This document shows, piece by piece, positions 1 through 64,000 of a stretch of 64,000 nt of DNA. This DNA is from Chamaelirium japonicum (taxonomy: Eukaryota; Streptophyta; Magnoliopsida; Liliales; Melanthiaceae). The position numbers and the translations under genes are program-made. Under the pieces are notes generated by a model. It ran no database searches. It was not told the DNA's origin and was given only the letters and a program-made list of their open reading frames with translations. The DNA lies in the NCBI GenBank assembly GCA_947650365.1, contig CANTAL010000127.1:496001-560000 (forward strand). Reading direction: 5' to 3'. Within the stretch, counting starts at the first letter, position 1. Every line of letters starts with the position of its first letter.

Positions 1-1464
1 TAGAATGGATCGTACGAATGAATTAGACTGGATCGTACGAATGAATTAGAATGGATCGTACGAATGAATTAGAATGGATCGTACGAATGAATTAGAATGG
101 ATCGTACGAATGAATTAGAATGGATACATTCGTGCGAATGAAGTAGAATGGATCGTACGAATGAATTAGAATGGATACATTCGTGCAAATGAAGTCGAAT
201 GGATCGTACGAATGATTTAGAATGGATCGTACGAATGAATTAGAATGAATCGTACGGATGAATTAGAATGGATACATTCGAACGAATGAATTAGAATAGA
301 TCATAGGAATGAATTAGAATGGATCATACGAATGAATTAGAATTGATCGTGCGAATGAATTAGAATGGATTGCACGTACGATCCATTCTACTTCATTCGC
401 ATGAATGTATCCATTCTAATTCCTTCGTACAATCCATTCTAATTCATTCGCACGATCAATTCTAATTCATTCGTATGATCCATTCTAATTCATTCGTACG
501 ATCCATTCTACTTCATTCACACGAATGTATCCATTCTAATTCATTCGTACGATCCATTCTAATTCATTCATACGATCCATTCTAATTCATTCGTACGATC
601 CATTCTAATTCATTCGCACGATCAAGTCTAATTCATTCGCACGAATGTATCAATTCTAATTCATTCGTACGATCTATTCTAATTCATTCGCCCGATCCAT
701 TCTAATTCATTCGTACGATCCATTCTACTTCATTCGAACGAATGTATCCATTCTAATTCATTCGTACAATCCATTCTAATTCATTCGTACGATCAATTCT
801 AATTCATTCGTATGATCCATTCTAATTCATTCCTACGATCTATTCTAATTCATTCGTTCGAATGTATCCATTCTAATTCATTCATACAATCCATTCTAAT
901 CGTACGAATGAATTAGAATGGAAACATTCGAACGAATGAATTAGAATAGATCGTAGGAATGAATTAGAATGGATCATACGAATGAATTAGAATTGATCGT
1001 GCGAATGAATTAGAATGGATTGTACGAATCAATTAGAATGGATACATTCGTGCGAATGAAGTAGAATGGATCGTACGAATAAATTAGAATGGATCGTACG
1101 AATGAATTAGAATGAATCGTACGAATGAATTAGAATAGATCGTAGGAATGAATTAGAATGGAAACATTCGAAGGAATGAATTAGAATAGATCGTAGGAAT
1201 GAATTAGAATGAATCGTACAAATGAATTAGAATGGATACATTCGAATGAATGAATTAGAATAGATCGTAGGAATGAATTAGAATGGATCATACGAATGAA
1301 TTAGAATTGATTGTACGAATGAATTAGAATGGATAGATTCGTGCGAATGAAGTAGAATGGATCGTACGAATGAATTAGAATAGATCGTACGAATGAATTA
1401 GAATGGATACATTCGAACGAATGAATTATAATAGATCGTAGGAATGAGTTAGAATGGATCATAC

Positions 1465-1520
1465 GAATGAATTAGAATGAATGAATTAGAATGAATGAAT
1501 TAGAATGAATGAATTAGAAT
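1465..1520 (+). repeat. Four 14-bp shortened monomers in tandem
   Basis: Four consecutive copies of GAATGAATTAGAAT (4 x 14 = 56 bp). Each equals a standard monomer that has lost the 9-base GGATCGTAC core. The array then resumes with GGATACATTC and flips strand near 1530. It looks like a local expansion of one deletion derivative, by slippage or unequal exchange. Confidence 0.9.
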
Positions 1521-8570: not shown

Positions 8571-8574
8571 TTCT

Positions 8575-12321: not shown

Positions 12322-13715
12322 TACGAATGAATTAGAATGAATCGTACGAATTAATTAGAATGGATCGTACGAATGAATTAGAATGGATACATTCATGCGA
12401 ATGAATTAGAATGGATCGTACGAATGAGTAACAATGGATCGTACGAATGAAATAGAATGGATCGTACGAATGAATTAGAATGGATCGTGCTAATGAATTA
12501 GAATGGATCGTACGAATGAATTAGAATGGATCGTACGAATGAATTAGAATAGATCGTGCGAATGAATTAGAATGGATTGTACGAATGAATTAGAATGGAT
12601 TGTACGAATGAATTAGAATGGAATGTATCCATTCTACTTCATTCGCACGAATGTATCCATTCTAATTCATTCGTACAATCCATTCTAATTCATTCGCACA
12701 ATCAATTCTAATTCATTCGTATGATCCATTCTAATTCATTCCTACGATCTATTCTAATTCATTCGTTCGAATGTATCCATTCTAATTCATTCGTACAATC
12801 CATTCTAATTCATTCGCACGATCAATTCTAATTCATTCGTATGATCCATTCTAATTCATTCCTACGATCTATTCTAATTCATTCGTTCGAATGTATCCAT
12901 TCTAATTCATTCGTACGATTCATTCCAATTCATTCGTACGATCCATTCTAATTCATTCGTACGATCCATTCTACTTCATTCGCATGAATGTATCCATTCT
13001 AATTAATTCGTGCAATCCATTCTAATTCATTCGCACGATCATTTCTAATTCATTCGTACGATCCATTCTAATTCATTCGTACGATCCATTCTACTTCATT
13101 CGCATGAATGTATCCATTCTAATTCATTCGTACAATCATTTCTAATTCATTCGCACGATCTATTCTAATTCATTCGTATGATCCATTCTAATTCATTCCT
13201 ACGATCTATTCTAATTTATTCGTTCGAATGTATCCATTCTAATTCATTCGTACGATTCATTCTAATTCATTCGTACGATCCATTCTAATACATTCGTACG
13301 ATCCATTCTACTTCATTCGCACGAATGTATCCATTCTAATTCATTCGTGCGAATGGATCGTACGAATTAATTGGAATGGATTCATTCGTACGATCCATTC
13401 TAATGAATGAATTAGTACAATCCATTCTAATTAGAATGAATTAGAATGGATCGTACGAATGAATTAGAATGAATCGTACGAATGAATTAGAATGGATCGT
13501 AGGAATGAATCGTGCGAATGAACGAATGAATTAGAATAGATCGTACGAATGAATTAGAATGGATTGTACGAATGAATTAGAATGGATCGTACGAATGAAT
13601 TAGAATGAATCGTACGAATGAATTAGAATGGATACATTCGTGCGAATAAAGTAGAATGGATCGTACGAATGAATTAGAATGGATCGTACGAACGAATGAA
13701 TTAGAATAGATCGTA
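12322..13715. repeat. Short mixed-orientation region
   Basis: F 12322-12623, R 12624-13345, scrambled 13346-13440, F 13441-13715. The F-to-R junction near 12623 (GAATGGAATGTATCC) is the commonest type in the window. In 13346-13440 partial monomers of both strands alternate within a few tens of bases. Confidence 0.82.
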
Positions 13716-16700
13716 CAATCCATTCTAATTCATTCGCTCGATCAATTCTAATTCATTCGTATGATCCATTCTAATTCATTCCTATGATCAATTCTAATTC
13801 ATTCGTATGATCCATTCTAATTCATTCGTATGATCCATTCTAATTTATTCCTACGATCTATTCTAATTCATTCGTTCGAATGTATCCATTCTAATTCATT
13901 CGTATGATTCATTCTAATTCATTCGTACGATCCATTCTAATTCATTCGTACGATCCATTCTACTTCATTCTCACGAATGTATCCATTCTAATTCATTCGT
14001 ACAATCCATTCTAATTCATTCGCACGATCAATTCTAATTCATTCGTATGATCCATTCTAATTCATTCCTACGATCTATTCTAATTCATTCGTACAATCCA
14101 TTCTAATTCATTCGCACGATCAATTCTAATTCATTCGTATGATCCATTCTAATTCATTCCTACAATCTATTCTAATTCATTCGTTCGAATGTATCCATTC
14201 TAATTCATTCTAATTCATTCGTACGATCCATTCTAATTAACGTACGATTCATTCTAATTAACGTACGATTCATTCATTCATATGAATTCATTCATACGAT
14301 CCATTCTACTTCATTCGCACGAATGTATCCATTGTAATTCATTCGTACAATCCATTCTAATTCATTCGCACGATCAATTCTAATTCATTCGTATGATCCA
14401 TTATAATTCATTCCTACGATCTATTCTAATTCATTCGTTCGAATGTATCCATTCTAATTCATTCATACGATTCATTCTAATTCATTCGTATGATCCAGTC
14501 TAATTCATTCGTACGATCCATTCTACTTCATTCGCACGAATGTATCCATTCTAATTCATTCGTACAATCCATTCTAATTCATTCGCACGATCAATTCTAA
14601 TTCATTCGTATGATCCATTCCAATTCATTCCTACGATCTATTCTAATTCATTCGTACGATTCATTCTAATTCATTCGTACGATCCATTCTAATTCATTCG
14701 TATGATCCATTCTAATTCATTCCTACGATCTATTCTAATTCATTCGTTCGAATGTATCCATTCTAATTCATTCGTACGATTCATTCTAATTCATTCGTAC
14801 GATCCATTCTATTTCATTCGTACGATCCATTCTACTTTATTCGCACGAATGTATCCATTCTAATTCCTTCGTACAATCCATTCTAATTCATTCGCACGAT
14901 CAATTCTAATTCATTCGTATGATCCATTCTAATTCATTCCTACGATCTATTCTAATTCATTAGTTCGAATGTATCCATTCTAATTCATTCGTACAATCCA
15001 TTCTAATTCATTCGCACGATCAATTCTAATTCATTCGTATGTTCCATTCTAATTCATTCCTACGATCTATTCTAATTCATTCGTTCGAATGTATCCATTC
15101 TAATTCCTTCGTACGATTCATTCTAATTCATTCGTACGATCCATTCTATTTCATTCATACGATCCATTCTACTTCATTCGCACGAATGTATCCATTCTAA
15201 TTCCTTCGTACAATCCATTCTAATTCATTCGCACGATCAATTCTAATTCATTCGTATGATCCATTCTAATTCATTCCTACGATCTATTCTAATTTATTAG
15301 TTCGAATGTATCCATTCTAATTCATTCGTACGATTCATTCTAATTCATTCGTACGATCCATTCGAATTCATTCGTACGATCCATTCTAATTCATTCGCAC
15401 GAATGTATCCATTCTAATTCATTCGTACGATCCATTCTACTTCATTCGCACGAATGTATCCATTCTAATTCATTCGTATAATCCATTCTAATTTATTCGC
15501 ACGATCAATTCTAATTCATTCGTTCGTACGATCCATTCTGATTCATTCGTACGATCCATTCTACATCATTCGCACGAATGTATCCATTCTAATTCATTCG
15601 TACAATCCATTCTAATTCATTCGCACGATCAATTCTAATTCATTCGTATGATCCATTCTAATTCATTCCTACGATCTATTCTAATTCATTCGTTCGAATG
15701 TATCCATTCTAATTCATTCGTACGATTCATTCTAATTCATTCGTACGATCCATTCTAATTCATTCGTACGATCCATTCTACTTCATTCGCTCGAATGTAT
15801 CCATTCTAATTCATTCGTGCAATCCATTCTAATTCATTCGCACGATCAATTCTAATTCATTCGTATGATCCATTCTAATTCATTCCTACGATCTATTCTA
15901 ATTCATTCGTTCGAATCTATCCATTCAAATTCATTCATACGATTCATTCTAATTCATTCGTACGATCCATTCTAATTCATTCGTACGATCCATTCTACTT
16001 CATTCGCTCGAATATATCCATTCTAATTCATTCGTACAATCCATTCTAATTCATTCGCACGATCAATTCTAATTCATTCGTATGATCCATTCTAATTCAT
16101 TCCTACGATCTATTCTAATTCATTCCTTCGAATGTATCCATTCTAATTCATTCGTACGATTCATTCTAATTCATTCGTACGATCCATTCTAATTCATTCG
16201 TACGATCCATTCTACTTCATTCGCACGAATGTATCCATTCTAATTTATTCGTACAATCCATTCTAATTCATTCGCACGATCAATTCTAATTCATTCGTAT
16301 GATCCATTCTAATTCATTCCTATGATATATTCTAATTCATTCGTACGATTCATTCTAATTCATTAGTACGATCCATTCTAATTCATTCGAATGATCCATT
16401 CTAATTCATTCCTACGATCTATTCTAATTCATTCGTTCGAATGTATCCATTTTAATTCATTCGTACGATCCATTCTATTTCATTCGTATGATCCATTCTA
16501 CTTCATTCGCACGAATGTATCCATTCTAATTCCTTCGTACAATCCATTATAATTCATTCGCACGATCAATTCTAATTTATTCGTATGATCCATTCTAATT
16601 CATTCCTACGATCTATTCTAATTCATTAGTTCGAATGTATCCATTCTAATTCATTCGTACAATCCATTCTAATTCATTCGCACGATCAATTCTAATTCAT

Positions 16701-17237
16701 TCGTATGATCCATTCTAATTCATTCCTACGATCTATTCTAATTCATTCGTTCGAATGTATCCATTCTAATTCATTCGTACGATTCATTCTAATTCATTCG
16801 TATGATCCATTCTATTTCATTCGTACGATCCATTCTACTTCATTCGCACGAATGTATCCATTCTAATTCCTTCGTACAATCCATTCTAAATCATTCGCAC
16901 GATCAATTCTAATTCATTCGTATAATCCATTCTAATTCATTCCTACGATCTATTCTAATTCATTAGTTCGAATGTATCCATTCTAATTCATTCGTACGAT
17001 TCATTCTAATTCATTCGTACGATCCATTCTAATTCATTCGTACGATCCATTCTAATTCATTCGCACGAATGTATCCATTCTAATTCAGTCGTACGATCCA
17101 TTCTACTTCATTCGCACAAATGTATCCATTCTAATTCATTCGTACAATCCATTCTAATTCATTCGCACGATCAATTCTAATTCATTCGCACGATCAATTC
17201 TAATTCATTCGCACGATCCATTCTACTTCATTCGTAT
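13716..17237 (-). repeat. R-orientation block with 1.67-kb tandem
   Basis: A continuous R block. The segment at about 14640-15440 matches about 16330-17100 at a spacing of 1,689, falling to 1,666 bases. The 23-base change equals one lost monomer. Shared markers are ATTAGTTCG (14958 and 15295 against 16624 and 16961) and the AATTCCTTCG variants. A degenerate spot at about 14205-14285 contains TTAACGTACGATTC twice and a CATATGAATTCATTC patch. Confidence 0.82.
15521..17100 (-). repeat. Dispersed segmental duplication, copy 2 (about 1.6 kb)
   Basis: Partner of 6968-8570. It lies inside the 13716-17237 R block, where its second half is also duplicated in tandem. The same material has therefore been copied at least twice, at two distances. 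Confidence 0.8.
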
Positions 17238-20200: not shown

Positions 20201-21740
20201 TAGAATGGAATGTATTCATTCTAATTCATTCGTACAATCCATTCTAATTCATTCGTACGATCCATTCTAATTCATTCGTACGATCCATTCTAATTCATTC
20301 GTTCGAATGTATCCATTCTAATTCATTCGTATGATTCATTCTAATTCATTCGTACGATCCATTCTAATTCATTCGTACGATCCATTCTAATTCATTCCTA
20401 CGATCTATTCTAATTCATTCGTTCGAATGTTTCCATTCTAATTCATTCGTACGATCCATTCTAATTCATTCGTACAATCCATTCTAATTCATTCGCACGA
20501 TCAATTCTAATTCATTCGTATGATCCATTCTAATTCATTCGTATGATCCATTCTAATTCATTCCTGCGATCTATTCTAATTCATTCGTTCGAATGTACAC
20601 ATTCTAATTCATTCGTATGATTCATTCTAATTCATTCGTACGATCCATTCTAATTCATTCGTACGATCCATTCTACTTCATTCTCACGAATGTATCCATT
20701 CTAATTCATTCGTACAATCCATTCTAATTCATTCGCACGATCGATTCTAATTCATTCGTATGATCCATTCTAATTCATTCCTACGATCTATTCTAATTCA
20801 TTCGTACAATCCATTCTAATTCATTCGCACGATCAATTCTAATTCATTCGTATGATCCATTCTAATTCATTCCTACGATCTATTCTAATTCATTCATTCG
20901 AATGTATCCATTCTAATTCATTCGTACGATTCATTCTAATTCATTCGTACGATCCATTCTAATTCATTCGTACGATCCATTCTACTTCATTCGCACGAAT
21001 GTATCCATTCTAATTCATTCGTACAATCCATTCTAATTCATTCGCACGATCAATTCTAATTTATTCGTATGATCCATTCTAATTCATTCCTACGATCTAT
21101 TCTAATTCATTCGTTCGAATGTATCCATTCTAATTCATTTGTACGATTCATTCCAATTCATTCGTACGATCCATTCTAATTCATTCGTACGATCCATTCT
21201 ACTTCATTCGCACGAATGTATCCATTCTAATTCATTCGTACAGACCATTCTAATTCATTCGCACGAATATATCCATTCGAATGTATTCGTACGATCCACC
21301 CTAATTCCTTCGTATGATCCATTCTAATTCATTCGGACGAATGTATCCATTGTAATTCATTCGTACGATCCATTCGAATTCATTCATACGATCCATTCTA
21401 ATTCATTCATACGATCCATTCTAATTCATTCGCACGAATGTATTCATTCGGACAATCTATTCTAATTTATTCGTACGATCCATTCTAATTCATTAGCACG
21501 ATCCATTCTAATTCATTCGTATGATCCATTCTATTTCATTTGTATGATCCATTCTTACTCATTCGTACGATCCATTCTAATTCATTCGCACGAATGTATC
21601 CATTCTAATTCAGTCATACGATCCATTCTAATTCATTCGCACGATCCATTCTAATTCATTTATACGATCCATTCTAATTCATTCGTACGATCCATTCTGA
21701 TTCATTCGTACAATCCATTCTACATCATTCGCACGAATGT
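17238..21740. repeat. Alternating satellite blocks
   Basis: F 17238-17722, R 17723-18950, F 18951-19296, R 19297-19790, F 19791-20212, R 20213-21740. The F block 18951-19296 has the same start junction (TCTAATACATTCGAACG) and end junction (GGATACATTCCATTC) as F 32153-32494, and almost the same length. It is thus a copied module. Confidence 0.85.
21240..21740 (-). repeat. Diverged, non-HOR satellite stretch
   Basis: Monomers remain recognisable but the 217-bp order is gone and substitutions are dense (CAGACCATTC, GATCCACCCTAATTCC, CATTCGGACAATC, CATTCTTACTCATTC). The CATTCTTACTCATTC variant recurs near 36930, 38908 and 48850 in other irregular patches. It is probably older, less homogenised array. 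Confidence 0.7.
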
Positions 21741-45300: not shown

Positions 45301-48281
45301 CTAATTCATTTGTACGATTCATTCTAATTCATTCGTACGATCCATTCTAATTCATTCGTACGATCCATTCTGTTTCATTCGCACGAATGTATCCATTCTA
45401 ATTCATTCGTACGATCCATTCTACTTCATTCGCACGAATGTATCCATTCTAATTCATTCGTACAATCCATTCTAATTCATTCGCACGATCAATTCTAATT
45501 CATTCGTATGATCCATTCTAATTCATTCCTACGATCTATTCTAATTCATTCGTTCAAATGTATCCATTCTAATTCATTCGCACGATCAATTCTAATTCAT
45601 TCGTACGATCCATTCTAATTCATTCGTACGATCCATTCTACTTCATTCGCACGAATGTATCCATTCTAATTCCTTCGTACAATCCATTCTAATTCATTCG
45701 CACGATCAATTCTAATTCATTCGTTTGATCCATTCCCATTCTAATTCATTCGCACGATTCATTCTAATTCATTCGTACGATCCATTCTAATTCATTCGTA
45801 CGATCCATTCTACTTCATTCGCACGAATGTATCCATTCTAATTCATTCGTACAATCCATTCTAATTCATTCACACGATCAATTCTAAGTACGAATGAATT
45901 AGAATTGATACATTCGTGCGAATGAAGTAGAATGGATCGTAGGAATGAATTAGAATGGATTGTACGAATGAATTAGAATGGATACATTCGTGCGAATGAA
46001 GTAGAATGGATCGTACGAATGAACGAGAATGGATCGTACGAATGAATCAGAATGGATCGTACGAATGAATTAGAATGAATCGTACGAATGAATTAGAATG
46101 GAAACATTCGAACGAATGAATTAGAATAGATCGTAGGAATGAATTAGAATGGATCATACGAATGAATTAGAATTGATCGTGCGAACGAATTAGAATGGAT
46201 TATACAAATGAATGGATCGTACGAATGAATTAGAATCGATCGTACGAATGAATTAGAATGAATTAGAATGGATACATTCGTGCGAATGAAGTAGAATGGA
46301 TCGTACGAATGAATTAGAATGGATCGTACGAATGAATTAGAATGAATCGTACGAATGAATTAGAATGGATACATTCGAACGAATGAATTAGAATAGATCG
46401 TAGGAATGAATTAGAATAGATCATACAAATGAATTAGAATTGATCGTGCGAATGAATTAGAATGGATTGCACGAATGAATTAGAATGGATACATTCGTGC
46501 GAATGAAGTAGAATGGATCGTACGAATGAATCAGAATGGATCGTATGAATGAATTAGAATGAATTAGAATGGAAACATTCGTACGATCCATTCTAATTCA
46601 TTCCTACGATCTATTCTAATTCATTCGCACGATTCATTCTAATTCATTCGTACAATCCATTCTAATCCATTCTAATTCATTCTAATTCATTCGTATGATC
46701 AATTCTAATACATTCGTACGATCCATTCTAATTCATTCCTACGATCTATTCTAATTCATTCGTACGATTCTTTCTAATTCATTCCTACGATGTATTCTAA
46801 TTCATTCGTTCGAATGTATTAGAATTGATCATACGAATGAATTAGAATGGATACATTCGAACGAATGAATTAGAATAGATCGTAGGAATGAATTAGAATG
46901 AATCATATGAATGAATTAGAATGGATACATTCGAACGAATGAATTAGAATAGATCGTAGGAATGAATTAGAATGGATCCATTCTAATTCATTAGAATGGA
47001 TTCATTCGCTCGAATGTATCCATTCTAATTCATTCGTACAATCCATTCTAATTCATTCGCACGATCAATTCTAATTCATTCGTATGATCCATTCTAATTC
47101 ATTCATACGATCTATTCTAATTCATTCGTTCGAATGTATCCATTCTAATTCATTCGTACGATCTATTCTAATTCATTCGTACGATCCATTCTACTTTATT
47201 CGTACGAATGTATCCATTCTAATTTATTCGTACAATCCATTCTAATTCATTCGTATGATCCATTCTAATTCATTCCTACGATCTATTCTAATTTATTCGT
47301 TCGAATGTATCCATTCTATTTCATTCGTACGATTCATTCTAATTCATTCGTACGATCCATTCTAATTCATTCGTATGATCCATTCTACTTCATTCGCACG
47401 AATGTATCCATTCTAATTCATTCGTGCAATCCATTCTAATTCATTCGCACGATCAATTCTTATTCATTCGTATGATCCATTCTAATTCATTCCTACGATC
47501 TATTCTAATTCATTCGTTCGATCCATTCTACTTCATTCGCACGAATGTATCCATTCTAATTCATTAGTACGATCCATTCTAATTCATTCGTACGATCCAT
47601 TCTAATTCATTCATACGATCCATTCTAATTTATTCGTACGATTCATTCGAATGTATCCATTCTAATTCATTCGTACAATCCATTCTAATTCATTCGCACG
47701 ATCAATTCTAATTCATTCGTATGATCCATTCTAATTCATTCCTACGATCTATTCTAATTCATTCGTTTGAATGTATCCATTCTAATTCATTCGTACGATC
47801 CATTCTAATTCATTCGTAGTACGATCCATTCTACTTCATTCGCACGAATGTATCCATTCTAATTCATTCGTACAATCCATTCTAATTCATTCCTACGATC
47901 AATTCTAATTCATTCGTATGTATCCGTTCTAATTCATTCGTACGATCCATTCTAATTCATTCGTTCGAATGTATCCATTCTAATTCATTCGTACAATCCA
48001 TTCTAATTCATTCATGCGAATGAAGTAGAATGGAAACATTCGAACGAATGAATTAGAATAGATCGTGCTAATGAATTAGAATGGATCGTACGAATAAATT
48101 AGAATAGATTGTCCGAATGAATACATTCGTGCGAATGAATTAGAATGGATCGTATGAATGAATTAGAATGGATCGTATGAATGAATTCGAATGGATCGTA
48201 TGAATGAATTATAATGGATACATTCGTCCGAATGAATTAGAATGGATCATACCAAGGAATTAGGGTGGATCGTACGAATGA
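38397..48281. repeat. Large tandem duplication, copy 1 (about 9.9 kb)
   Basis: Blocks: F to 38716, R to 39136, F to 39629, R to 39843, F to 40264, R to 41119, F to 41303, R to 41917, F to 42420, R to 45886, F to 46581, R to 46819, F to 46977, R to 48013, then F. Copy 2 repeats this block pattern with the same rare variants (ACATTGGTGCG, CATTATACGAACC, AGATATAATTCC, CACTATCCAGATCT at 42705, ACCAAGGAATTAGGG at 48251). The offset is 9,948 at the start, 9,971 in the middle and 9,911 at the end, reflecting a few indels. By eye there are only a few dozen single-base differences. Confidence 0.92.
40387..40416. repeat. 30-bp perfect palindrome in copy 1
   Basis: Arms ATTAGAATGGATTGT and complement, centred between 40401 and 40402. 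It is a sliver of F orientation inside an R block, preceded by an odd AATTCATAATTAGATGG patch. Confidence 0.9.
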
Positions 48282-48344
48282 ATTAGAATGGATCGTACGA
48301 ATGAATTAGAATGAATCGTACGATCGAGCGAATGAATTAGAATA
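48282..48344 (+). repeat. Joint between the two 9.9-kb copies
   Basis: A short F stretch with an anomalous CGATCGAGCGAATG join. Its left part matches the sequence at about 38290-38355 just before copy 1, up to GAATCGTACG, so the tandem junction lies in shared satellite. This fits unequal exchange between misaligned HOR units, with a small deletion beside it. Confidence 0.7.
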
Positions 48345-51300
48345 GATCGTAGGAATGAATTAGAATGGATCATACGAATGAATTAGAATTGATCGTGCGA
48401 ATGAATTAGAATGGATTGTACGAATGAATTAGAATGGATACATTGGTGCGAATGAAGTAGAATGGATCGTACGAATGAATTAGAATGGATCGTATGAATG
48501 AATTAGAATGGATACATTCGAACGAATGAATTAGAATAGATCGTAGGAATGAATTAGAATGGATCATACGAATGAATTAGAATTGATCGTGCGAATGAAT
48601 TAGAATGGATTGTACGAATGAATTAGAATGGATACATTCGTGCGAATGAAGTAGAATGGATACATTCCTTTCTAATTCATTCGTGCAATCCATTCTAATT
48701 CATTCGTACAATCCATTCTAATTCATTCGCACGATCCATTCTAATTCATTCGTACGATCCATTCTAATTCATTCGTACGATCCATTCTAATTCATTAGCA
48801 CGACCATTCTAATTCATTCGTACGATCCATTCTATTTCATTCGTACGATCCATTCTTACTCATTCATATGATCCATTCTAATTCATTCGCATGAATGTAT
48901 CCATTCTAATTCATTCGTACGATCCATTCTAATTCATTCGTACGATCCATTCTAATTCATTCGCACGAATGTATCCATTCTAATTCATTCGTACAATCCA
49001 TTCTAATTTATTCGCATGATCATTATACGAACCATTCTAATTCATTCCTACGATCTATTCTAATTCATTCGTTCGAATGTATCCAATGAATTAGAATGGA
49101 TCATACGAAAGAATTAGAATTGATCGTGCGAATGAATTAGAATGGATTGTACGAATGAATTAGAATGGATACATTCGTGCGAATGAAGTAGAATGGATCG
49201 TACGAATGAATTAGAATGGATACATTCGTGCGAATGAAGTAGAATGGATCGTACGAATGAATTAGAATGGATCGTACGAATGAATTAGAATGAATCGTAC
49301 GAATGAATTAGAATGGAAACATTCGAACGAATGAATTAGAATGGATTAGAATGGATACATTCGAACGAATGAATTAGAATAGATCGTAGGAATGAATTAG
49401 AATGGATCATACGAATGAATTAGAATTGATCGTGCGAATGAATTAGAATGGATTGTACGAATGAATTAGAATGGATATATTCGTGCGAATGAAGTAGAAT
49501 GGATCGTACGAATGAATTAGAATGGATCTTACGAATGAATTAGAATGAATCGTACGAATGAATTAGAATAGATATAATTCCTAATTCATTCGTACGATTC
49601 ATTCTAATTCATTCGTACGATCCATTCTAATTCATTCGTACGATCCATTCTACTTCATTCGCACGAATGTATCGATTCTAATTTATTCGTACAATCCATT
49701 CTAATTCATTCGCACGATCAATTCTAATTCATTCGTATGATCCATTCTAATTCATTCCTACGATCTATTCTAATTCATTCGTTCGAATGTTTCCATTCTA
49801 ATTCATTCGTATGATTAGAATGGATTGTACGAATGAATTAGAATGGATATATTCGAACGAATGAATTAGAATAGATCGTAGGAATGAATTAGAATGGATC
49901 ATACGAATGAATTAGAATTGATCGTGCGAATGAATTAGAATGGATTGTACGAATGAATTAGAATGGATACATTCGTGCGAATGAAATAGAGTGGATCGTA
50001 CGAATGTAGTAGAATGGATCGTACGAATGAATTAGAATGAATCCTACGAATGAATTAGAATGGATACATTCGAACGAATGAATTAGAATAGATCGTAGGA
50101 ATGAATTAGAATGGATCATACGAATGAATTAGAATTGATCGTGCGAATGAATTAGAATGGATTGTACGAATGAATTAGAATGGATACATTCGTGCGAATG
50201 AAGTAAAATGGATCGTACGAATGAATTAGAATGGAATGTATCCATTCTAATTCATTCGTACAATCCATTCTAATTCATTCGTACGATCCATTCTAATTCA
50301 TTCGTACGATCCATTCAACTTCATTCGTATGATCCATTCTAATTCATAATTAGATGGATTAGAATGGATTGTACAATCCATTCTAATTCATTCGCACGAT
50401 CAATTCTAATTAATTCGTATGATCCATTCTAATTCATTCCTACGATCTATTCTAATTCATTCATTCGAATGTATCCATTCTAATTCATTCATTCAATCCA
50501 TTCTATTTTATTCGCATGATCAATTCTAATTCATTCGTATGATCCATTCTAATTCATTCCTACGATCTATTCTAATTCATTCGTTCGAATGTATCCATTC
50601 TAATTCATTCGTACGATTCATTCTAATTCATTCGTACGATACATTCTACTTCATTCGCACGAATGTATCCATTCTAATTCATTCGTACAATCCATTCTAA
50701 TTCATTCGCACGATCAATTCTAATTTATTCGTATGATCCATTCTAATTCATTCCTACGATCTATTCTAATTCATTCGTTCGAATGTTTCCATTCTAATTC
50801 ATTCGTACGATTCATTCGTACGATCCATTCTGATTCATTTGTACGATCCATTCTAATTCATTCGTACGATCCATTCTTCTTCATTTGCACGAATGTATCC
50901 ATTCTAATTCATTCGTACAATCCATTCTAATTCATTCGTACGATCCATTCTACTTCATTCGCACGAATGTATCCATTCTAATTCATTCGTACAATCCATT
51001 CTAATTCATTCGCACGATCAATTCTAATTCATTCGTATGATCCATTCTAATTCATTCCTACGATCTATTCTAATTCATTCGTTCGAATGTATTAGAATTG
51101 ATCATACGAATGAATTAGAATGGATACATTCGAACGAATGAATTAGAATAGATCGTAGGAATGAATTAGAATGAATCGTACGAATGAATTAGAATGGATA
51201 CATTCGAACGAATGAATTAGAATAGATCGTAGGAATGAATTAGAATGGATCGTACGAATGAATTAGAATGGAATGTATCTACTCTACTTCATTCGCTCGA

Positions 51301-54300
51301 ATGTATCCATTCTAATTCATTCGTACAATCCATTCTAATTCATTCGCACGATCAATTCTAATTCATTCGTATGATCCATTCTAATTCATTCCTACGATCT
51401 ATTCTAATTCATTCGTTCGAATGTATCCATTCTAATTCATTCGTACGATCTATTCTAATTCATTCGTACGATCCATTCTACTTCATTCGCACGAATGTAT
51501 CCATTCTAATTCATTCGTACAATCCATTCTAATTCATTCGTATGATCCATTCAAATTCATTCCTACGATCTATTCTAATTTATTCGTTCGAATGTATCCA
51601 TTCTAATTCATTCGTACGATTCATTCTAATTCATTCCTACGATCTATTCTAATTCATTCGTACGAATGTATCCATTCTAATTCATTCGTATGATCAATTC
51701 TAATTCATTCGTATGATCCATTCTAATTCATTCGCACGAATGTATCCATTATAATTCATTCGTACAATCCATTCTAATTCATTCGCACGATCAATTCTAA
51801 TTCATTCGTATGATCCATTCTAATTCATTCCTACGATCTATTCTAATTCATTCGTTCGAATGTTTCCATTCTAATTCATTCGTACGATTAGAATGGATTG
51901 TACGAATGAATTAGAATGGATACATTCGAACGAATGAATTAGAATAGATCGTAGGAATGAATTAGAATGGATCATACGAATGAATTAGAATTGATCGTGC
52001 GAATGAATTAGAATGGATTGTACGAATGAATTAGAATGGATACATTCGTGTGAATGAAGTAGAATGGATCGTACGAATGAATTAGAATGGATCGTGCGAA
52101 TGAATTAGAATAGATCGTACGAATGAATTAGAATTGATACATTCGTGCGAATGAATTAGAATTGATCGTGCGAATGAATTAGAATGGATCGTACGAATGA
52201 ATTAGAATGGATCGTAAGAATGAATTAGAATGGATACATTCGTGCGAATGAAGTAGAATGGATCGTACGAATGAATTAGAATGGATCATACGAATGAATT
52301 AGAATTGATCGTGCGAATGAATTAGAATGGATTGTACGAAGGAATTAGAATGGATACATTCGTGCGAATGAAGTAGAATGGATCGTACGTGCAATCCATT
52401 CTAATTCATTCGCACGATCAATTCTAATTCATTCGTATGGTCCATTCTAATTCATTCCTATGATCTATTCTAATTCATTCGTTCGAATGTATCCATTCTA
52501 ATTCATTCGTACGATTCATTCTAATTCATTCGTACGATCCATTCTAATTCATTCGTACGATCCATTCTGATTCATTCATACGATCCATTCTAATTCATTC
52601 GTACGATCCATTCTACTTCATTCGCACGAATGTATCCATTCTAATTTATTCGTGCAATCCATTCAAATTCATTCCCACTATCCAGATCTATTCTAATTCA
52701 TTCGCACGAATGTATCCATTCTAATTCATTCGCACGATCAATTCTAATTCATTCGTATGATCCATTCTAATTCATTCCTACGATCTATTCTAATTCATTC
52801 GTTCGAATGTATCCATTCTAATTCATTCGTACGATTCATTCTAATTCATTCGTACGATCCATTCTAATTCATTCGTACGATCCATTCTAATTCATTCCTA
52901 CGATCTATTCTAATTCATTCGTTCGAATGTTTCCATTCTAATTCATTCGTACGATCCATTCTAATTCATTCGTACGATTCATTCTAATTCATTCGTACGA
53001 TCCATTCTAATTCATTCGTACGATCCATTCTATTTCATTCGCTCGAATGTATCCATTCTAATTCATTCGTGCAATCTATTCTAATTCATTCGCACGATCA
53101 ATTCTAATTCATTCGTATGATCCATTCTAATTCATTCCTCATTCTAATTCATTCGTACAATCCATTCTAATTCATTCGCACGATCAATTCTAATTCATTC
53201 GTATGATCCATTCTAACTCATTCCTACGATCTATTCTAATTCATTCGTTCGAATGTATCCATTCTAATTCATTCGTACGATTCATTCTAATTCATTCGTA
53301 CGATCCATTATAATTCATTATTACGATCCATTCTACTTCATTCGCACGAATGTATCCATTCTAATTCATTCGTACAATCCATTCTAATTCATTCGCACGA
53401 TCAATTCTAATTCATTCGTATGATCCATTCTAATTCATTCCTACGATCTATTCTAATTCATTCGTTTGAATGTATCCATTCTAATTCATTCGTACGATTC
53501 ATTCTAATTCATTCGTACGATCCATTCTAATTCATTTGTACGATCCATTCTACTTCATTCGCTCAAATGTATCCATTCTAATTCATTCGTGCAATCCATT
53601 CTAATTCATTCGCACGATCAATTCTAATTCATTCGTATGATCCGTTCTAATTCATTCCTATGATCTATTCTAATTCATTCATTCGAATGTATCCATTCTA
53701 ATTCATTCGTACGATTCATTCTAATTCATTCGTACGATCCATTCTAATTCATTCGTACGATCCATTCTACTTCATTCGTACGAATGTATCCATTCTAATT
53801 CATTCGTACAATCCATTCTAATTCATTCGCATGATCAATTCTAATTCATTCGTATGATCCATTCTACTTCATTCGTATGATTCATTCTAATTCATTCGTA
53901 CAATCCATTCTAATTCATTCGTACGATCCATTCTAATTCATTCGTACGATCCATTCTACTTCATTCGCACGAATGTATCCATTCTAATTCATTCGTACAA
54001 TCCATTCTAATTCATTCGCACGATCAATTCTAATTCATTCGAATGATCTATTCTAATTCATTCCTACGATCTATTCTAATTTCTTCGTTCGAATGTATCC
54101 ATTCTAATTCATTCGTACGATTCATTCTAATTCATTCGTACGATCCATTCTAATTCATTCGTATGATCCATTCTATTTCATTCGCACGAATGTATCCATT
54201 CTAATTCATTCGTGCAATCCATTCTAATTCATTCGCACGATCAATTCTAATTCATTCGTATGATCCATTCTAATTCATTCCTATGATCTATTCTAATTCA

Positions 54301-57300
54301 TTCGTTCGATCCATTCTACTTCATTCGCACAAATGTATCCATTCTAATTCATTCGTACGATCCATTCTAATTCATTCGTACGATCCATTCTAATTCATTC
54401 GTATGATTCATTCGAATGTATCCATTCTAATTCATTCATACAATCCAATCTAATTCATTCGAACGATCAATTCTAATTCATTCGTATGATCCATTCTAAT
54501 TCATTCCTACGATCTATTCTAATTCATTCGTTCGAATGTATCCATTCTAATTCATTCGTACGATCTATTCTAATTCATTCGTACGATCCATTCTAATTCA
54601 TTCGTACGATCCATTCTACTTCATTCGCACGAATGTATCCATTCTAATTTATTCGTACAATCCATTCTAATTCATTCGCACGATCAATTCTAATTCATTC
54701 GTATGATCCATTCTAATTCATTCCTATGATCTATTCTAATTCATTCATTCGAATGTTTCCATTCTAATTCATTCGTATGATTCATTCTAATTCATTCGTA
54801 TAATCCATTCTAATTCATTCGTACGATCCATTCTACTTTATTCTCACGAATGTATCCATTCTAATTCATTCGTACGATCCATTCTGCTTCATTCGCATGA
54901 ATGTATCCATTCTAATTCATTCGTACAATCCATTCTAATTCATTCGCACGATCAATTCTAATTCATTCGTACGATCAATTCTAATTCATTCGTATGATCC
55001 ATTCTAATTCATTCCTACGATCTATTCTAATTCATTTGTTCGAATGTTTCCATTCTAATTCATTCGTACGATTCATTCTAATTTATTAGTACGATCCATT
55101 CTGATTCATTCGTACGATCCATTCTAATTCATTCGTACGATCCATTCTACTTCATTCGCACGAATGGATCTATTCTAATTCATTCGTACAATCCATTCTA
55201 ATTCATTCGTAAGATTCATTCTAATTCATTCCTACGATCTATTCTAATTCATTCGTTCGAATGTTTCCATTCTAATTCATTTGTACGATTCATTCTTATT
55301 CATTCGTACGATCCATTCTAATTCATTCGTACGATCCATTCTGTTTCATTCGCACGAATGTATCCATTCTAATTCATTCGTACGATCCATTCTACTTCAT
55401 TCGCACGAATGTATCCATTCTAATTCATTCGTACAATCCATTCTAATTCATTCGCACGATCAATTCTAATTCATTCGTATGATCCATTCTAATTCATTCC
55501 TACGATCTATTCTAATTCATTCGTTCAAATGTATCCATTCTAATTCATTCGCACGATCAATTCTAATTCATTCGTACGATCCATTCTAATTCATTCGTAC
55601 GATCCATTCTACTTCATTCGCACGAATGTATCCATTCTAATTCCTTCGTACAATCCATTCTAATTCATTCGCACGATCAATTCTAATTCATTCGTTTGAT
55701 CCATTCCCATTCTAATTCATTCGCACGATTCATTCTAATTCATTCGTACGATCCATTCTAATTCATTCGTACGATCCATTCTACTTCATTCGCACGAATG
55801 TATCCATTCTAATTCATTCGTACAATCCATTCTAATTCATTCACACGATCAATTCTAAGTACGAATGAATTAGAATTGATACATTCGTGCGAATGAAGTA
55901 GAATGGATCGTAGGAATGAATTAGAATGGATTGTATGAATGAATTAGAATGGATACATTCGTGCGAATGAAGTAGAATGGATCGTACGAATGAACGAGAA
56001 TGGATCGTACGAATGAATCAGAATGGATCGTACGAATGAATTAGAATGAATCGTACGAATGAATTAGAATGGAAACATTCGAACGAATGAATTAGAATAG
56101 ATCGTAGGAATGAATTAGAATGGATCATACGAACGAATTAGAATGGATCATACGAATGAATTAGAATGGATACATTCGTGCGAATGAAGTAGAATGGATC
56201 GTACGAATGAATTAGAATGGATCGTACGAATGAATTAGAATGAATCGTACGAATGAATTAGAATGGATACATTCGAACGAATGAATTAGAATAGATCGTA
56301 GGAATGAATTAGAATAGATCATACAAATGAATTAGAATTGATCGTGCGAATGAATTAGAATGGATTGCACGAATGAATTAGAATGGATACATTCGTGCGA
56401 ATGAAGTAGAATGGATCGTACGAATGAATCAGAATGGATCGTATGAATGAATTAGAATGAATTGTACGAATGAATTAGAATGGAAACATTCGTACGATCC
56501 ATTCTAATTCATTCCTACGATCTATTCTAATTCATTCGCACGATTCATTCTAATTCATTCGTACAATCCATTCTAATCCATTCTAATTCATTCTAATTCA
56601 TTCGTATGATCAATTCTAATACATTCGTACGATCCATTCTAATTCATTCCTACGATCTATTCTAATTCATTCGTACGATTCTTTCTAATTCATTCCTACG
56701 ATGTATTCTAATTCATTCGTTCGAATGTATTAGAATTGATCATACGAATGAATTAGAATGGATACATTCGAACGAATGAATTAGAATAGATCGTAGGAAT
56801 GAATTAGAATGAATCATATGAATGAATTAGAATGGATACATTCGAACGAATGAATTAGAATAGATCGTAGGAATGAATTAGAATGGATCCATTCTAATTC
56901 ATTAGAATGGATTCATTCGCTCGAATGTATCCATTCTAATTCATTCGTACAATCCATTCTAATTCATTCGCACGATCAATTCTAATTCATTCGTATGATC
57001 CATTCTAATTCATTCATACGATCTATTCTAATTCATTCGTTCGAATGTATCCATTCTAATTCATTCGTACGATCTATTCTAATTCATTCGTACGATCCAT
57101 TCTACTTTATTCGTACGAATGTATCCATTCTAATTTATTCGTACAATCCATTCTAATTCATTCGTATGATCCATTCTAATTCATTCCTACGATCTATTCT
57201 AATTTATTCGTTCGAATGTATCCATTCTATTTCATTCGTACGATTCATTCTAATTCATTCGTACGATCCATTCTAATTCATTCGTATGATCCATTCTACT

Positions 57301-58191
57301 TCATTCGCACGAATGTATCCATTCTAATTCATTCGTGCAATCCATTCTAATTCATTCGCACGATCAATTCTTATTCATTCGTATGATCCATTCTAATTCA
57401 TTCCTACGATCTATTCTAATTCATTCGTTCGATCCATTCTACTTCATTCGCACGAATGTATCCATTCTAATTCATTAGTACGATCCATTCTAATTCATTC
57501 GTACGATCCATTCTAATTCATTCATACGATCCATTCTAATTTATTCGTACGATTCATTCGAATGTATCCATTCTAATTCATTCGTACAATCCATTCTTAT
57601 TCATTCGCACGATCAATTCTAATTCATTCGTATGATCCATTCTAATTCATTCCTACGATCTATTCTAATTCATTCGTTTGAATGTATCCATTCTAATTCA
57701 TTCGTACGATCCATTCTAATTCATTCGTAGTACGATCCATTCTACTTCATTCGCACGAATGTATCCATTCTAATTCATTCGTACAATCCATTCTAATTCA
57801 TTCCTACGATCAATTCTAATTCATTCGTATGTATCCGTTCTAATTCATTCGTACGATCCATTCTAATTCATTCGTTCGAATGTATCCATTCTAATTCATT
57901 CGTACAATCCATTCTAATTCATTCATGCGAATGAAGTAGAATGGAAACATTCGAACGAATGAATTAGAATAGATCGTGCTAATGAATTAGAATGGATCGT
58001 ACGAATAAATTAGAATAGATTGTCCGAATGAATACATTCGTGCGAATGAATTAGAATGGATCGTATGAATGAATTAGAATGGATCGTATGAATGAATTCG
58101 AATGGATCGTATGAATGAATTATAATGGATACATTCGTCCGAATGAATTAGAATGGATCATACCAAGGAATTAGGGTGGATCGTACGAATG
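48345..58191. repeat. Large tandem duplication, copy 2 (about 9.9 kb)
   Basis: Blocks: F to 48667, R to 49084, F to 49579, R to 49815, F to 50236, R to 51090, F to 51274, R to 51889, F to 52391, R to 55858, F to 56491, R to 56728, F to 56886, R to 57925, then F. Compared with copy 1 it has one extra 23-bp monomer near 49595 and lost about 80 bases of satellite near 56140 (against 46190-46270). It also has a GTACGAATGAATTA-type expansion near 56462. Similarity stops at about 58191, where GAATGAATTAG in copy 1 becomes GAATGCATTAG followed by different monomers. Confidence 0.92.
50358..50387. repeat. 30-bp perfect palindrome in copy 2
   Basis: Exact counterpart of 40387-40416 at offset 9,971, showing that this rearrangement predates the large duplication. 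Confidence 0.9.
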
Positions 58192-58700
58192 CATTAGAAT
58201 GGATATATTCGTGCGAATGAATTAGAATGGATTGTATGAATGAATTAGAATGGATCGTATGAATGAATTAGAATGGATCGTACGAATGAATTAGAATGGA
58301 TCGTACGAATGAATTAGAATGAATCATACGAATGAATTAGAATGGATACATTTGAACGAATGAATTAGAATAGATCGTAGGAATGAATTAGAATGGATCA
58401 TACGAATGAATTAGAATTGATCGTGCGAATGAATTAGAATGGATTGCACGAATGAATTAGAATGGATACATTCGTGCGAATGAAGTAGAATGGATCGTAC
58501 GAATGAATTAGAATGGATCGTACGAATGAATTAGAATGAATCGTACGAATGAATTAGAATGGATACATTCGAACGAATAAATTAGAATAAATCGTACGAA
58601 TGAATTAGAATGGATCATACAAATGAATTAGAATTGATCGTGCGAATGAATTAGAATGGATTGTACGAATGAATTAGAATGGATACATTCGTGCGAATGA
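58192..58700 (+). repeat. F satellite between copy 2 and the partial third copy
   Basis: Regular and near-regular HOR monomers, starting with atypical ones (GGATATATTCGTGCG, GGATTGTATG, GGATCGTATG). There are no foreign bases. The exact start of the third copy cannot be fixed because satellite continues through it. Confidence 0.75.
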
Positions 58701-61700
58701 AGTAGAATGGATCGTACGAATGAATTAGAATGGATCGTACGAATGAATTAGAATGGATCGTAAGATTGAATTAGAATGGATACATTCGTGCGAATGAAGT
58801 AGAATGGATCGTACGAATGAATTAGAATGGATCATACGAATGAATTAGAATTGATCGTGCGAATGAATTAGAATGGATTGTACGAAGGAATTAGAATGGA
58901 TACATTCGTGCGAATGAAGTAGAATGGATCGTACGTGCAATCCATTCTAATTCATTCGCACGATCAATTCTAATTCATTCGTATGATCCATTCTAATTCA
59001 TTCCTATGATCTATTCTAATTCATTCGTTCGAATGTATCCATTCAAATTCATTCGTACGATTTATTCTAATTCATTTGTACGATCCATTCTAATTCATTC
59101 GTACGATCCATTCTGATTCATTCGTACGATCCATTCTGATTCAATCGTACGATCCATTCTAATTCATTCGTACGATCCATTCTACTTCATTCGCACGAAT
59201 GTATCCATTCTAATTTATTCGTGCAATCCATTCAAATTCATTCCCACTATCCAGATCTATTCTAATTCATTCGCACGAATGTATCCATTCTAATTCATTC
59301 GCACGATCAATTCTAATTCATTCGTATGATCCATTCTAATTCATTCCTACGATCTATTCTAATTCATTCGTTCGAATATATCCATTCTAATTCATTCGTA
59401 CGATTCATTCTAATTCATTCGTACGATCCATTCTAATTCATTCGTACGATCCATTCTAATTCATTCCTACGATCTATTCTAATTCATTCGTTCGAATGTT
59501 TTCATTCTAATTCATTCGTACGATCCATTCTGATTCATTCGTACGATCCATTCTAATTCATTTGTACGATTCATTCTAATTCATTCGTACGATCCATTCT
59601 AATTCATTCGTACGATCCATTCTATTTCATTCGCTCGAATGTATCCATTCTAATTCATTCGTGCAATCTATTCTAATTCATTCGCACGATCAATTCTAAT
59701 TCATTCGTATGATCCATTCTAATTCATTCCTCATTCTAATTCATTCGTACAATCCATTCTAATTCATTCGCACGATCAATTCTAATTCATTCGTATGATC
59801 CATTCTAACTCATTCCTACGATCTATTCTAATTCATTCCTTCGAATGTATCCATTCTAATTCATTCGTACGATTCATTCTAATTCATTCGTACGATCCAT
59901 TATAATTCATTCGTACGATCCATTCTACTTCATTCGCACGAATGTATCCATTCTAATTCATTCGTACAATCCATTCTAATTCATTCGCACGATCAATTCT
60001 AATTCATTCGTATGATCCATTCTAATTCATTCCTACGATCTATTCTAATTCATTCGTTTGAATGTATCCATTCTAATTCATTCGTACGATTCATTCTAAT
60101 TCATTCGTACGATCCATTCTAATTCATTCGTACGATCCATTCTACTGCATTCGCTCGAATGTATCCATTCTAATTCATTCGTGCAATCCATTCTAATTCA
60201 TTCGCACGATCAATTCTAATTCATTCGTATGATCCATTCTAATTCATTCCTACGATCTATTCTAATTTCTTCGTTCGAATGTATCCATTCTAATTCATTC
60301 GTACGATTCATTCTAATTCATTCGTACGATCCATTCTAATTCATTCGTATGATCCATTCTACTTCATTCGCACGAATGTATCCATTCTAATTCATTCGTG
60401 CAATCCATTCTAATTCATTCGCACGATCAATTCTAATTCATTCGTATGATCCATTCTAATTCATTCCTACGATCTATTCTAATTCATTCGTTCGATCCAT
60501 TCTATTTCATTCGCACAAATGTATCCATTCTAATTCATTCGTACGATCCATTCTAATTCATTCGTACGATCCATTCTAATTCATTCGTACGATCCATTCT
60601 AATTCATTCGTACGATTCATTGGAATGTATCCATTCTAATTCATTCGTACAATCCATTCTAATTCATTCGCACGATCAATTCTAATTCATTCGTATGATC
60701 AATTCTAATTCATTCCTACGATCTATTCTAATTCATTCGTTCGAATGTATCCATTCTAATTCATTCGTACGATCCATTCTAATTCATTCGTACGATCCAT
60801 TCTAATTCATTCGTACGATCCATTCTACTTCATTCGCACGAATGTATCCATTCTAATTCATTCGTACAATCCATTCTAATTCATTCGCACGATCAATTCT
60901 AATTCATTCGTATGATCCATTCTAATTCATTCCTATGATCTATTCTAATTCATTCGTTCGAATGTTTCCATTCTAATTCATTCGTATGATTCATTCTAAT
61001 TCATTCGTATAATCCATTCTAATTCATTCGTACGATCCATTCTACTTCATTCGCACGAATGTATCCATTCTAATTCATTCGTACGATCCATTCTGCTTCA
61101 TTCGCATGAATGTATCCATTCTAATTCATTCGTACAATCCATTCTAATTCATTCGCACGATCTATTCTAATTCATTCGTATGATCCATTCTAATTCATTC
61201 CTACGATCTATTCTAATTCATTCGTTCGAATGTTTCCATTCTAATTCATTCGTACGATTCATTCTAATTCATTTGTACGATCCATTCTGATTCATTCGTA
61301 CGATCCATTCTAATTCATTCGTACGATCCATTCTACTTTATTTGCACGAATGGATCCATTCTAATTCATTCGTACAATCCATTCTAATTCATTCGTACGA
61401 TTCATTCTAATTCATTCCTACGATCTATTCTAATTCATTCGTTCGAATGTTTCCATTCTAATTCATTTGTACGATTCATTCTAATTCATTCGTACGATCC
61501 ATTCTAATTCATTCGTACGATCCATTCTGTTTCATTCGCACGAATGTATCCATTCTAATTCATTCGTACGATCCATTCTACTTCATTCGCACGAATGTAT
61601 CCATTCTAATTCATTCGTACAATCCATTCTAATTCATTCGCACGATCAATTCTAATTCATTCGTATGATCCATTCTAATTCATTCCTACGATCTATTCTA

Positions 61701-64000
61701 ATTCATTCGTTCGAATGTATCCATTCTAATTCATTCGCACGATCAATTCTAATTCATTCGTACGATCCATTCTAATTCATTCGTACGATCCATTCTACTT
61801 CATTCGCACGAATGTATCCATTCTAATTCCTTCGTACAATCCATTCTAATTCATTTGGACGATCAATTCTAATTCATTCGTTTGATCCATTCCCATTCTA
61901 ATTCATTCGTACGATTCATTATAATTCATTCGTACGATCCATTCTAATTCATTCGTACAATCCATTCTACTTCATTCGCACGAATGTATCCATTCTAATT
62001 CATTCGTACAATCCATTCTAATTCATTCGCACGATCAATTCTAAGTACGAATGAATTAGAATTGATACATTCGTGCGAATGAAGTAGAATGGATCGTACG
62101 AATGAATTAGAATGGATTGTACGAATGAATTAGAATGGATACATTCGTGCGAATGAAGTAGAATGGATCGTACGAATGAACGAGAATGGATCGTACGAAT
62201 GAATCAGAATGGATCGTACGAATGAATTAGAATGAATCATACGAATGAATTAGAATGGAAACATTCGAACGAATGAATTAGAATAGATCGTAGGAATGAA
62301 TTAGAATGGATCATACGAATGAATTAGAATTGATCGTGCGAACGAATTAGAATGGATTATACGAATGAATGGATCGTACGAATGAATTAGAATGGATCGT
62401 ACGAATGAATTAGAATGAATTAGAATGGATACATTCGTGCGAATGAAGTACAATGGATCGTACGAATGAATTAGAATGGATCGTACGAATGAATTAGAAT
62501 GAATCGTACGAATGAATTAGAATGGATACATTCGAACGAATGAATTAGAATAGATCGTAGGAATGAATTAGAATAGATCATACAAATGAATTAGAATTGA
62601 TCGTGCGAATGAATTAGAATGGATTGCACGAATGAATTAGAATGGATACATTCGTGCGAATGAAGTAGAATGGATCGTACGAATGAATCAGAATGGATCG
62701 TATGAATGAATTAGAATGAATTATACGAATGAATTAGAATGGAAACATTCGTACGATCTATTCTAATTCATTCCTACGATCTATTCTAATTCATTCGCAT
62801 GATTCATTCTAATTCATTCGTACAATCCATTCTAATCCATTCTAATTCATTCTAATTCATTCGTATGATCAATTCTAATACATTCGTACGATCCATTCTA
62901 ATTCATTCCTACGATCTATTCTAATTCATTCGTACGATTCTTTCTAATTCATTCCTACGATCTATTCTAATTCATTCGTTCGAATGTATTAGAATTGATC
63001 ATACGAATGAATTAGAATGGATACATTCGAACGAATGAATTAGAATAGATCGTAGGAATGAATTAGAATGAATCGTACGAATGAATTAGAATGGATACAT
63101 TCGAACGAATGAATTAGAATAGATCGTAGGAATGAATTAGAATGGATCGTACGAATGAATTAGAATGGAATGTATCTATTCTACTTCATTCGCTCGAATG
63201 TATCCATTCTAATTCATTCGTACAATCCATTCTAATTCATTCGCACGATCAATTCTAATTCATTCGTATGATCCATTCTAATTCATTCATACGATCTATT
63301 CTAATTCATTCGTTCGAATGTATCCATTCTAATTCATTCGTACGATCTATTCTAATTCATTCGTACGATCCATTCTACTTCATTCGTACGAATGTATCCA
63401 TTCTAATTTATTCGTACAATCCATTCTAATTCATTCGTATGATCCATTCTAATTCATTCCTACGATCTATTCTAATTTATTCGTTCGAATGTGTCCATTC
63501 TAATTCATTCGTACGATTCATTCAAATTCATTCGTACGATCCATTCTAATTCATTCGTATGATCCATTCTACTTCATTCGCACGAATGTATCCATTCTAA
63601 TTCATTCGTGCAATCCATTCTAATTCATTCGCACGATCAATTCTAATTCATTCGTATGATCCATTCTAATTCATTCCTACGATCTATTCTAATTCATTCG
63701 TTCGATCCATTCTACTTCATTCGTACGAATGTATCCATTCTAATTCATTCGTACGATCCATTCTAATTCATTCGTACGATCCATTCTAATTCATTCATAC
63801 GATCCATTCTAATTTATTCGTACGATTCATTCTAATGTATCCATTCTAATTCATTCGTACAATCCATTCTAATTCATTCACACGATCAATTCTAATTCAT
63901 TCGTATGATCCATTCTAATTCATTCCTACGATCTATTCTAATTCATTCGTTCGAATGTATCCATTCTAATTCATTCGTATGATCCATTCTAATTCATTCG
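58700..64000. repeat. Partial third copy of the large unit, diverged
   Basis: F to 58937, R to 62045, F to 62751, R to 62988, F to 63172, R to the window end. It follows copy 2 from about 52200, with offset 6,546 at the ACGTGCAATCC switch, 6,569 at CACTATCCAGATCT (59245) and 6,273 near 63704. It has more substitutions and more monomer gains and losses than the copy 1/copy 2 pair. The right end lies outside the window. Confidence 0.85.

Follow-up and report, generated by a model that had tools for sequence, protein, structure and literature searches.

Satellite arrays in which the repeats run in both orientations, with possible inversion breakpoints, are on record in the accessible text of three reports (PMC10264360, PMC12722358, PMC4022460). 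The mixed strand orientation of the Chio arrays has been published for the holocentric plant Chionographis japonica (PMC10264360). As far as the accessible text goes, the authors of that genome leave open how the repeats spread to 100 centromere units; the routes that they propose are gene conversion between loci, inversions for which one of the breakpoints falls in the array, and reinsertion of circular DNA (PMC10264360). Here we analyze the junctions at which repeats change strand in 64,000 nucleotides of Chamaelirium japonicum DNA (positions 496001-560000 of contig C139, CANTAL010000127.1, 873,162 bp), which we call the window. It holds the following array:

1..64000, unstranded: satellite array of 23-bp monomers and 28-bp variants in a 217-bp higher-order unit, from Tandem Repeats Finder (TRF) and hidden Markov models (HMMs); 81 strand switches

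The junctions in this array recur, occur on both strands, bound blocks of fixed length and are shared among two arrays of the large contig C3 and five other contigs. The explanation that we prefer, and regard as quite probable, is that asymmetric junctions are inherited within composite forward/reverse blocks of the centromeric Chio1/Chio2 satellite, and that these blocks have been duplicated, re-inverted and shared between arrays. An initial annotation of the window had read the junctions as the result of a few founding inversions followed by amplification and shuffling of composite forward/reverse modules. Our results support the amplification and shuffling for the asymmetric classes; the small number of founding inversions did not stand.

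Recurrent junction classes and their flanks

A two-strand HMM built on the 23-bp monomer called the 81 switches in the window, and an HMM of the 217-bp unit called 85, of which 79 passed the filters. The survey was extended to 264 kb of the same contig, window included. It contained 413 switches; 77 were dropped before counting, either for a tract shorter than 40 bp or for much non-satellite DNA nearby, and 336 were kept (79 of them in the window). An exact 32-mer twin was found for 219 of the 336 junctions, as compared to 2 when the same tracts were joined at random (336 joins). Together with the neighbour, spacing and flank tests reported below, this result confirms the earlier claim that the inversion junctions are recurrent and not independent.

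The 79 window junctions fell into 18 context clusters, comprising 14 with at least two copies and four singletons; two of these singletons have a relative outside the window. The "about a dozen recurrent types" of the initial annotation is thus close, with the proviso that the number depends on the threshold (10 to 34 clusters for the 81 window junctions). The 336 junctions form 93 context clusters, with 92, 74, 60, 42 or 29 at cut-offs 2 to 6, and the word "few" for the founders was accordingly an understatement.

Five sequence words had been listed as marks of the junctions. Words 2 and 4 read a single junction from opposite strands, as do words 3 and 5; the five words therefore represent three junctions. 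Their positions in the window, from which the earlier coordinates sit 3 to 10 bases off when compared with the exact match starts, are:

1632, 18949, 24053, 31510, 32153, 34161, unstranded: class R3 junctions (words 2 and 4), first six
41120, 46818, 51091, 56729, 62988, unstranded: class R3 junctions (words 2 and 4), last five
899, 19790, 24851, 30648, 32914, 39845, 41918, 49816, 51889, unstranded: class R4 junctions (words 3 and 5)
12623..63174, unstranded: class F1 junctions (word 1), 17 in the window, with haplotypes F1a, F1b and F1c

Word 1, GAATGGAATGTATCC, was exact at seven of its ten places; 41303, 51274 and 63172 carry GAATGGAATGTATCT, which is the same junction. Four further exact matches lie on the minus strand of the window. 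Word 2, CGAATGTATTAGAATTGATC, was exact at all seven places, word 3 at all three and word 5 at all four, and the variant of word 5 near 39843 and 49815 is present as well. Word 4 was exact at three of four places, with one base changed at 31510. Copies of word 2 also occur in plain reverse tracts on the minus strand (46697, 56608 and 62867) and at 1733 within a plain forward tract, so that this 20-mer alone is no junction marker. The copy at 1733 possibly preserves what the right side of R3 looked like before the switch.

Flanks that differ within a class had been named in advance as an argument against common types, and this was found in part, since the word-1 class has three flank haplotypes, each of them uniform. 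The reverse side of F1a and F1b opens with a type-f 28-mer (CGCACG or CGCTCG) and that of F1c with type e. The sequence GAATGTATCCATTCTACTTC, common to F1a and F1b, occurs 33 times in the 264 kb and is preceded by the junction's TG in 26 of these cases. This pattern suggests that F1a and F1b probably had a common ancestor and exchanged flanks later.

Flank identities were judged against plain repeat of the same phase, with a median identity of 0.912. The medians of R4, F6, F11, R15 and R17 were 0.975-1.00 at 15-95 bp and 0.938-1.00 at 95-175 bp; both near-flank medians reached at least 0.95 in these classes and in R19 and R22. The values for R3 were 0.938/0.963 near the junction and 0.812/0.913 further out, and those of the palindrome-centred classes R5, F2, F10 and R7 were 0.827-0.944 and 0.763-0.934. 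Flank identity hence separates two kinds of class: junctions that are private and inherited, and palindromic ones of a generic type. The concordance of left and right flank distances that had been proposed as a check was found in R4 (r 0.93, p 0.017) and in F2, F10 and R7 (r 0.78-0.83, p 0.001). It was borderline in F6 (r 0.80, p 0.051) and F11 (r 0.95, p 0.086), and was not seen in R5 (r 0.18, p 0.11) or in R3.

Two-strand modules and their distribution

The junctions keep constant company. Within a class, 0.226 of the pair-sides in the 264 kb share the class of the neighbouring junction, versus 0.068 after the labels were permuted within junction type; 0.136 share both neighbour class and spacing, versus 0.003. 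When the second copies of five duplicated blocks were removed (288 junctions left), the values were 0.203 versus 0.060 for the neighbour and 0.112 versus 0.0024 for neighbour and spacing. Several blocks are nearly constant in length: F1-R3 measures 186 bp in 13 of 13 cases, F6-R3 236-237 bp in 12 of 12, and F1-R4 419 bp in 5 of 5 or, in its other arrangement, 612 bp in 6 of 7. Variable lengths were found for F11-R4 (406-522 bp, n=8) and F2-R7 (947-2194 bp, n=6). Both strands are represented in 16 of the 19 classes with at least four members, which suggests that junction-bearing blocks have been inverted in turn. The modules in the window are:

23894..24242, plus strand: composite module F1a-R3-F1b (F/R/F/R), 334 bp between the F1 cores, with junctions near 23901, 24053 and 24239
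46582..46818, plus strand: F6-R3 module, a 236-bp reverse tract bounded by the 7-bp inverted repeat ACATTCG/CGAATGT
56493..56729, plus strand: F6-R3 module, second copy, within the 9.95-kb duplication
62752..62988, plus strand: F6-R3 module, third plus-strand copy
19790..20209, plus strand: R4-F1c module, 419 bp
30229..30648, minus strand: R4-F1c module, 419 bp, opposite strand
32495..32914, minus strand: R4-F1c module, 419 bp, opposite strand
39845..40264, plus strand: R4-F1c module, 419 bp
49816..50235, plus strand: R4-F1c module, 419 bp, copy in the 9.95-kb duplication

Some of these modules lie within a larger duplication. In the 264 kb, four near-tandem duplications were found whose copies are offset by 10.65, 9.95, 10.12 and 9.11 kb and are 97.9-99.1% identical. 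They lie at 471-488, 534-553, 559-575 and 604-626 kb of C139 and look unrelated, yet all of their offsets fall between 9.1 and 10.7 kb. The following copies lie in the window:

38187..46498, plus strand: 9.95-kb near-tandem duplication, first copy, 98.4% identical to 48132-56493
48132..56493, plus strand: 9.95-kb near-tandem duplication, second copy
61114..64000, plus strand: further partial copy of 44957-48013 (97.1%)

Genome-wide searches covered one genome (1,518,659,071 bp in 3253 contigs) and used the cores of F1, R3, R4, R5, F6 and F10, one segment of plain repeat and the F1-F1 module, the last with two different spacings. Word 1 has 325 copies. The F1a-R3-F1b module has 28, 14 on each strand, always with a spacing of 334 bp (333 in one). 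Five of them lie on the 100-Mb contig C3 (two near 31.16 Mb and three at 61.4-61.5 Mb), and the others on C124 (2), C139 (7), C166 (5), C176 (3) and C240 (6). In the same genome the reversed pattern and the other spacing (350-379) each gave 0 matches.

The R3 core has 103 copies, and the 100 matches listed lie on C3 (nine at 30-31 Mb and eight at 61 Mb), C124, C139, C166, C167, C176 and C240. The 78 copies of the R4 core are on C3, C124, C128, C139, C166, C176 and C240. Neither core was found on C1 or C2, considering all 78 R4 sites and the 100 of 103 R3 matches listed. These sites and those of the module indicate that two C3 arrays, 30 Mb apart, hold junctions in common that C1 and C2 lack. 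The F6 core occurs at 48 sites, and in 26 of these R3 is exactly 233 bp away (between core starts) and in two 223 bp away; the paired sites lie on C3, C139, C166, C176 and C240. Among nine module copies the likeness was 0.958 between regions (25 pairs) versus 0.952 within regions (11 pairs). The short contigs may belong to the C3 arrays or to other units. Similar series of R3 sites with differing inner lengths were seen on C124 (28-95 kb), C166 (718-762 kb) and C176 (385-442 kb); these may be allelic or paralogous arrays with large internal length changes.

We suggest the following course of events. Strand switches would arise at many points, and asymmetric ones (the F1 haplotypes, R3, R4, F6, F11 and others) would then be inherited as parts of the repeat. 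The junctions would move in composite forward/reverse blocks, several of them fixed in length. Such blocks would be duplicated near-tandemly (copies of some 9-11 kb), turned over in their entirety, so that a given block can lie on either strand, and held in common by different arrays. The amplifier could be unequal exchange or break-induced copying, and the transfer between arrays could be due to gene conversion or reinsertion of circular DNA.

Origin of the switches and rival explanations

Perfect palindromes with arms of at least 7 lie at 44 of the 336 junctions; random joins have them in 4.4% of cases and plain repeat in 0.6%. Counted by context they occur in 14 of 93, again versus 4.4% (p 6e-5). 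CGTACG is the centre of 24 junctions in 10 contexts; these recur in unrelated surroundings and look independently formed. An example from the window is:

33165..33197, unstranded: palindrome-centred R>F junction of class R5 near 33181, on CGTACG, with 16-bp perfect arms

The exact R5 palindrome core is found at 3,382 sites genome-wide and that of F10 at 2,241; the first 50 matches listed of each all belong to C1, where they form a number of distinct clusters. R5 and F10 would be the two products expected from forward/reverse joining at the self-complementary TCGTACGA. At window position 4542 lies a singleton R>F junction centred on TACGTA; its perfect palindrome arms measure 39 bp, more than those of any other palindromic junction listed for the window, and it is perhaps a young fold-back. 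A looser dyad test gave 6.75% false positives in plain repeat, equal to its null, and the perfect-palindrome test was used instead.

We propose tentatively, as a possibility not far from evenly balanced, that the founding step is joining at short inverted microhomology, either at the self-complementary TCGTACGA or at CATTCG. The former is common to both strands, and the latter stands in the 28-bp monomer inverted relative to the CGAATG of the others: the 28-mer's ACATT followed by CG reads ACATTCG. Sixty founder clusters were available, of which six lacked overlap data and were left out. In the remaining 54 the parents overlap by at least 5 bp in 17, versus 9.3% of random joins, and CATTCG/CGAATG lies within the overlap in eight, versus 1.8%. 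A strict consensus-based microhomology test gave mostly negative overlaps, with 202 of 336 junctions usable, and was replaced because it was upset by repeat variants. The F6-R3 block ends in the 7-bp inverted repeat ACATTCG/CGAATGT in both copies examined, and after flipping, the block looks to the eye like uninterrupted forward repeat. We regard it as no more than a candidate for a founding inversion.

Several observations speak against the inheritance of junctions in composite blocks or against its proposed beginnings. A control that kept the observed repeat phases and drew random copies still gave exact twins in 140 of 336 cases; repeat phase therefore accounts for part of the exactness, and for the remainder the argument relies on the neighbour and flank tests. 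Both near flanks reach at least 0.95 in just 7 of the 24 largest classes, and the left and right flank distances of R3 are uncorrelated (r 0.03, p 0.32). As many as 20 of the 48 F6 sites are without an R3 partner, including single or paired ones on C2, C4, C5, C7, C8, C11, C15 and others. With respect to microhomology, 18 of 54 founder clusters contain bases that neither parent explains, versus 9.8% in the null, and across all overlaps the shift is weak (p 0.012 for the class maxima and 0.087 for the medians). Balanced inversion was not demonstrated, and we reject it as the general founding step. Only one of 215 distinct tracts (F6-R3) restores the repeat phase when flipped, where 1.3 are expected by chance, and tract ends show no enrichment of inverted repeats (0.242 vs 0.213). 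No uninverted F6-R3 allele was found above the repeat background, the best match being 90.8%. The centromeric role also has to be weighed here: going by its sequence the satellite is very probably the centromere repeat.

Recurrent inversion at the same hotspots, set by dyad symmetries of the monomers, could produce like junctions that are not inherited copies. The excess of palindrome-centred junctions and the genome-wide abundance of the R5 and F10 cores fit this idea, as does the fact that the flanks of the palindrome-centred classes are no more alike than plain repeat. However, hotspots cannot yield shared neighbours at fixed spacing, nor modules of 334 bp and 233 bp, and a perfect palindrome with arms of at least 7 is missing at 292 of the 336 junctions. 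We consider hotspots improbable as the explanation of the recurrence. Inheritance within blocks has further to be set against an artefact of hairpin reads or of misjoined repeats. The array is highly repetitive and the palindrome at 4542 has long arms, but none of the 336 junctions has 120-bp arms at 97% identity or above (median 0.79), and the same modules, a few percent diverged, sit on separate contigs. The accessible text of the genome's authors reports mixed orientation too (PMC10264360). An origin in read palindromes was therefore rejected, and the artefact as such is highly unlikely. That the recurrence merely reflects recent 10-kb duplications seen repeatedly is suggested by the many earlier coordinates that lie about 9,970 bases apart, an offset due to the 9.95-kb duplication with its 98.4% identical copies. 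Because the neighbour signal survives removal of the duplicated blocks, duplication was rejected as the whole cause; the modules are also present on other contigs, and this account is extremely unlikely.

Identity of the satellite and comparison with known systems

TRF reported periods of 23, 46, 97 and 120 in the window. The 28-bp monomer is the 23-bp monomer with an extra ACATT (5-bp indel), and each 28-mer of the higher-order unit departs from the plain 23-mer at two more places. Nine monomers, a to i, make up the 217-bp unit, seven of them 23-mers and two 28-mers (a and f); the profile, trained on the data, has a mean top-base frequency of 0.964. The mixed forward/reverse arrays that are a trait of Chio1/Chio2 are present, and the 9-mer TTCGTACGA was found in the reverse-strand monomer. 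Because monomer sizes, the 5-bp indel, the higher-order cluster, the mixed orientation and this 9-mer agree, the C139 array is very probably the Chio1/Chio2 satellite of C. japonica, an assignment by these traits. Copies of the 217-bp unit are packed in exact 217-bp steps at 30.009-30.045 Mb of C3, while its 44-mer is found only sparsely on C1 and C2. This higher-order arrangement could be confined to a small number of centromere units.

The window is satellite throughout save for two pieces:

35429-36063: 635-bp insert with 13-bp terminal inverted repeats TAGGGGTGGCAAT/ATTGCCACCCCTA and an ACCCG-rich interior
35083-35150: small patch of non-satellite DNA within the array

The insert sits inside a 28-bp monomer and is flanked on both sides by 8-bp direct repeats ATTCGAAC. 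It is presumably a hAT-type miniature inverted-repeat transposable element.

Within otherwise near-identical repeats, an inherited junction that keeps its neighbours offers an informative marker, by which exchange between centromere units can be mapped and ordered. The copied flips can serve as tags of how centromere DNA is copied and moved, and the distinction between private inherited and generic palindromic junctions separates spread from new formation. It is possible, though on present evidence rather doubtful, that two-strand modules and not single monomers are the units that move centromere DNA between holocentromere units, that the satellite makes its own switches through the inverted motif of the 28-mer, and that private junctions are barcodes of the C3 arrays, 30 Mb apart, which share or exchange DNA, C1 and C2 having no R3/R4 core.

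No description of inherited junction classes or of two-strand modules was found in the literature searched, supplements and most subscription papers lying outside it. For Chio1/Chio2 mixed orientation is reported, and the accessible part of that paper describes no junction classes, two-strand inherited modules or sharing of junctions between units (PMC10264360). The human HSat2,3 arrays also consist of short units, but their sequence is unrelated, and in the accessible text their breakpoints are neither classified nor traced (PMC4022460). According to the available text on the Chama satellite of Chamaelirium luteum, that repeat has the 9-mer TTCGTACGA in common with the Chio monomer (PMC12722358). 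Unlike Chio, it is built of a 60-bp monomer and forms one large centromere per chromosome (PMC12722358).
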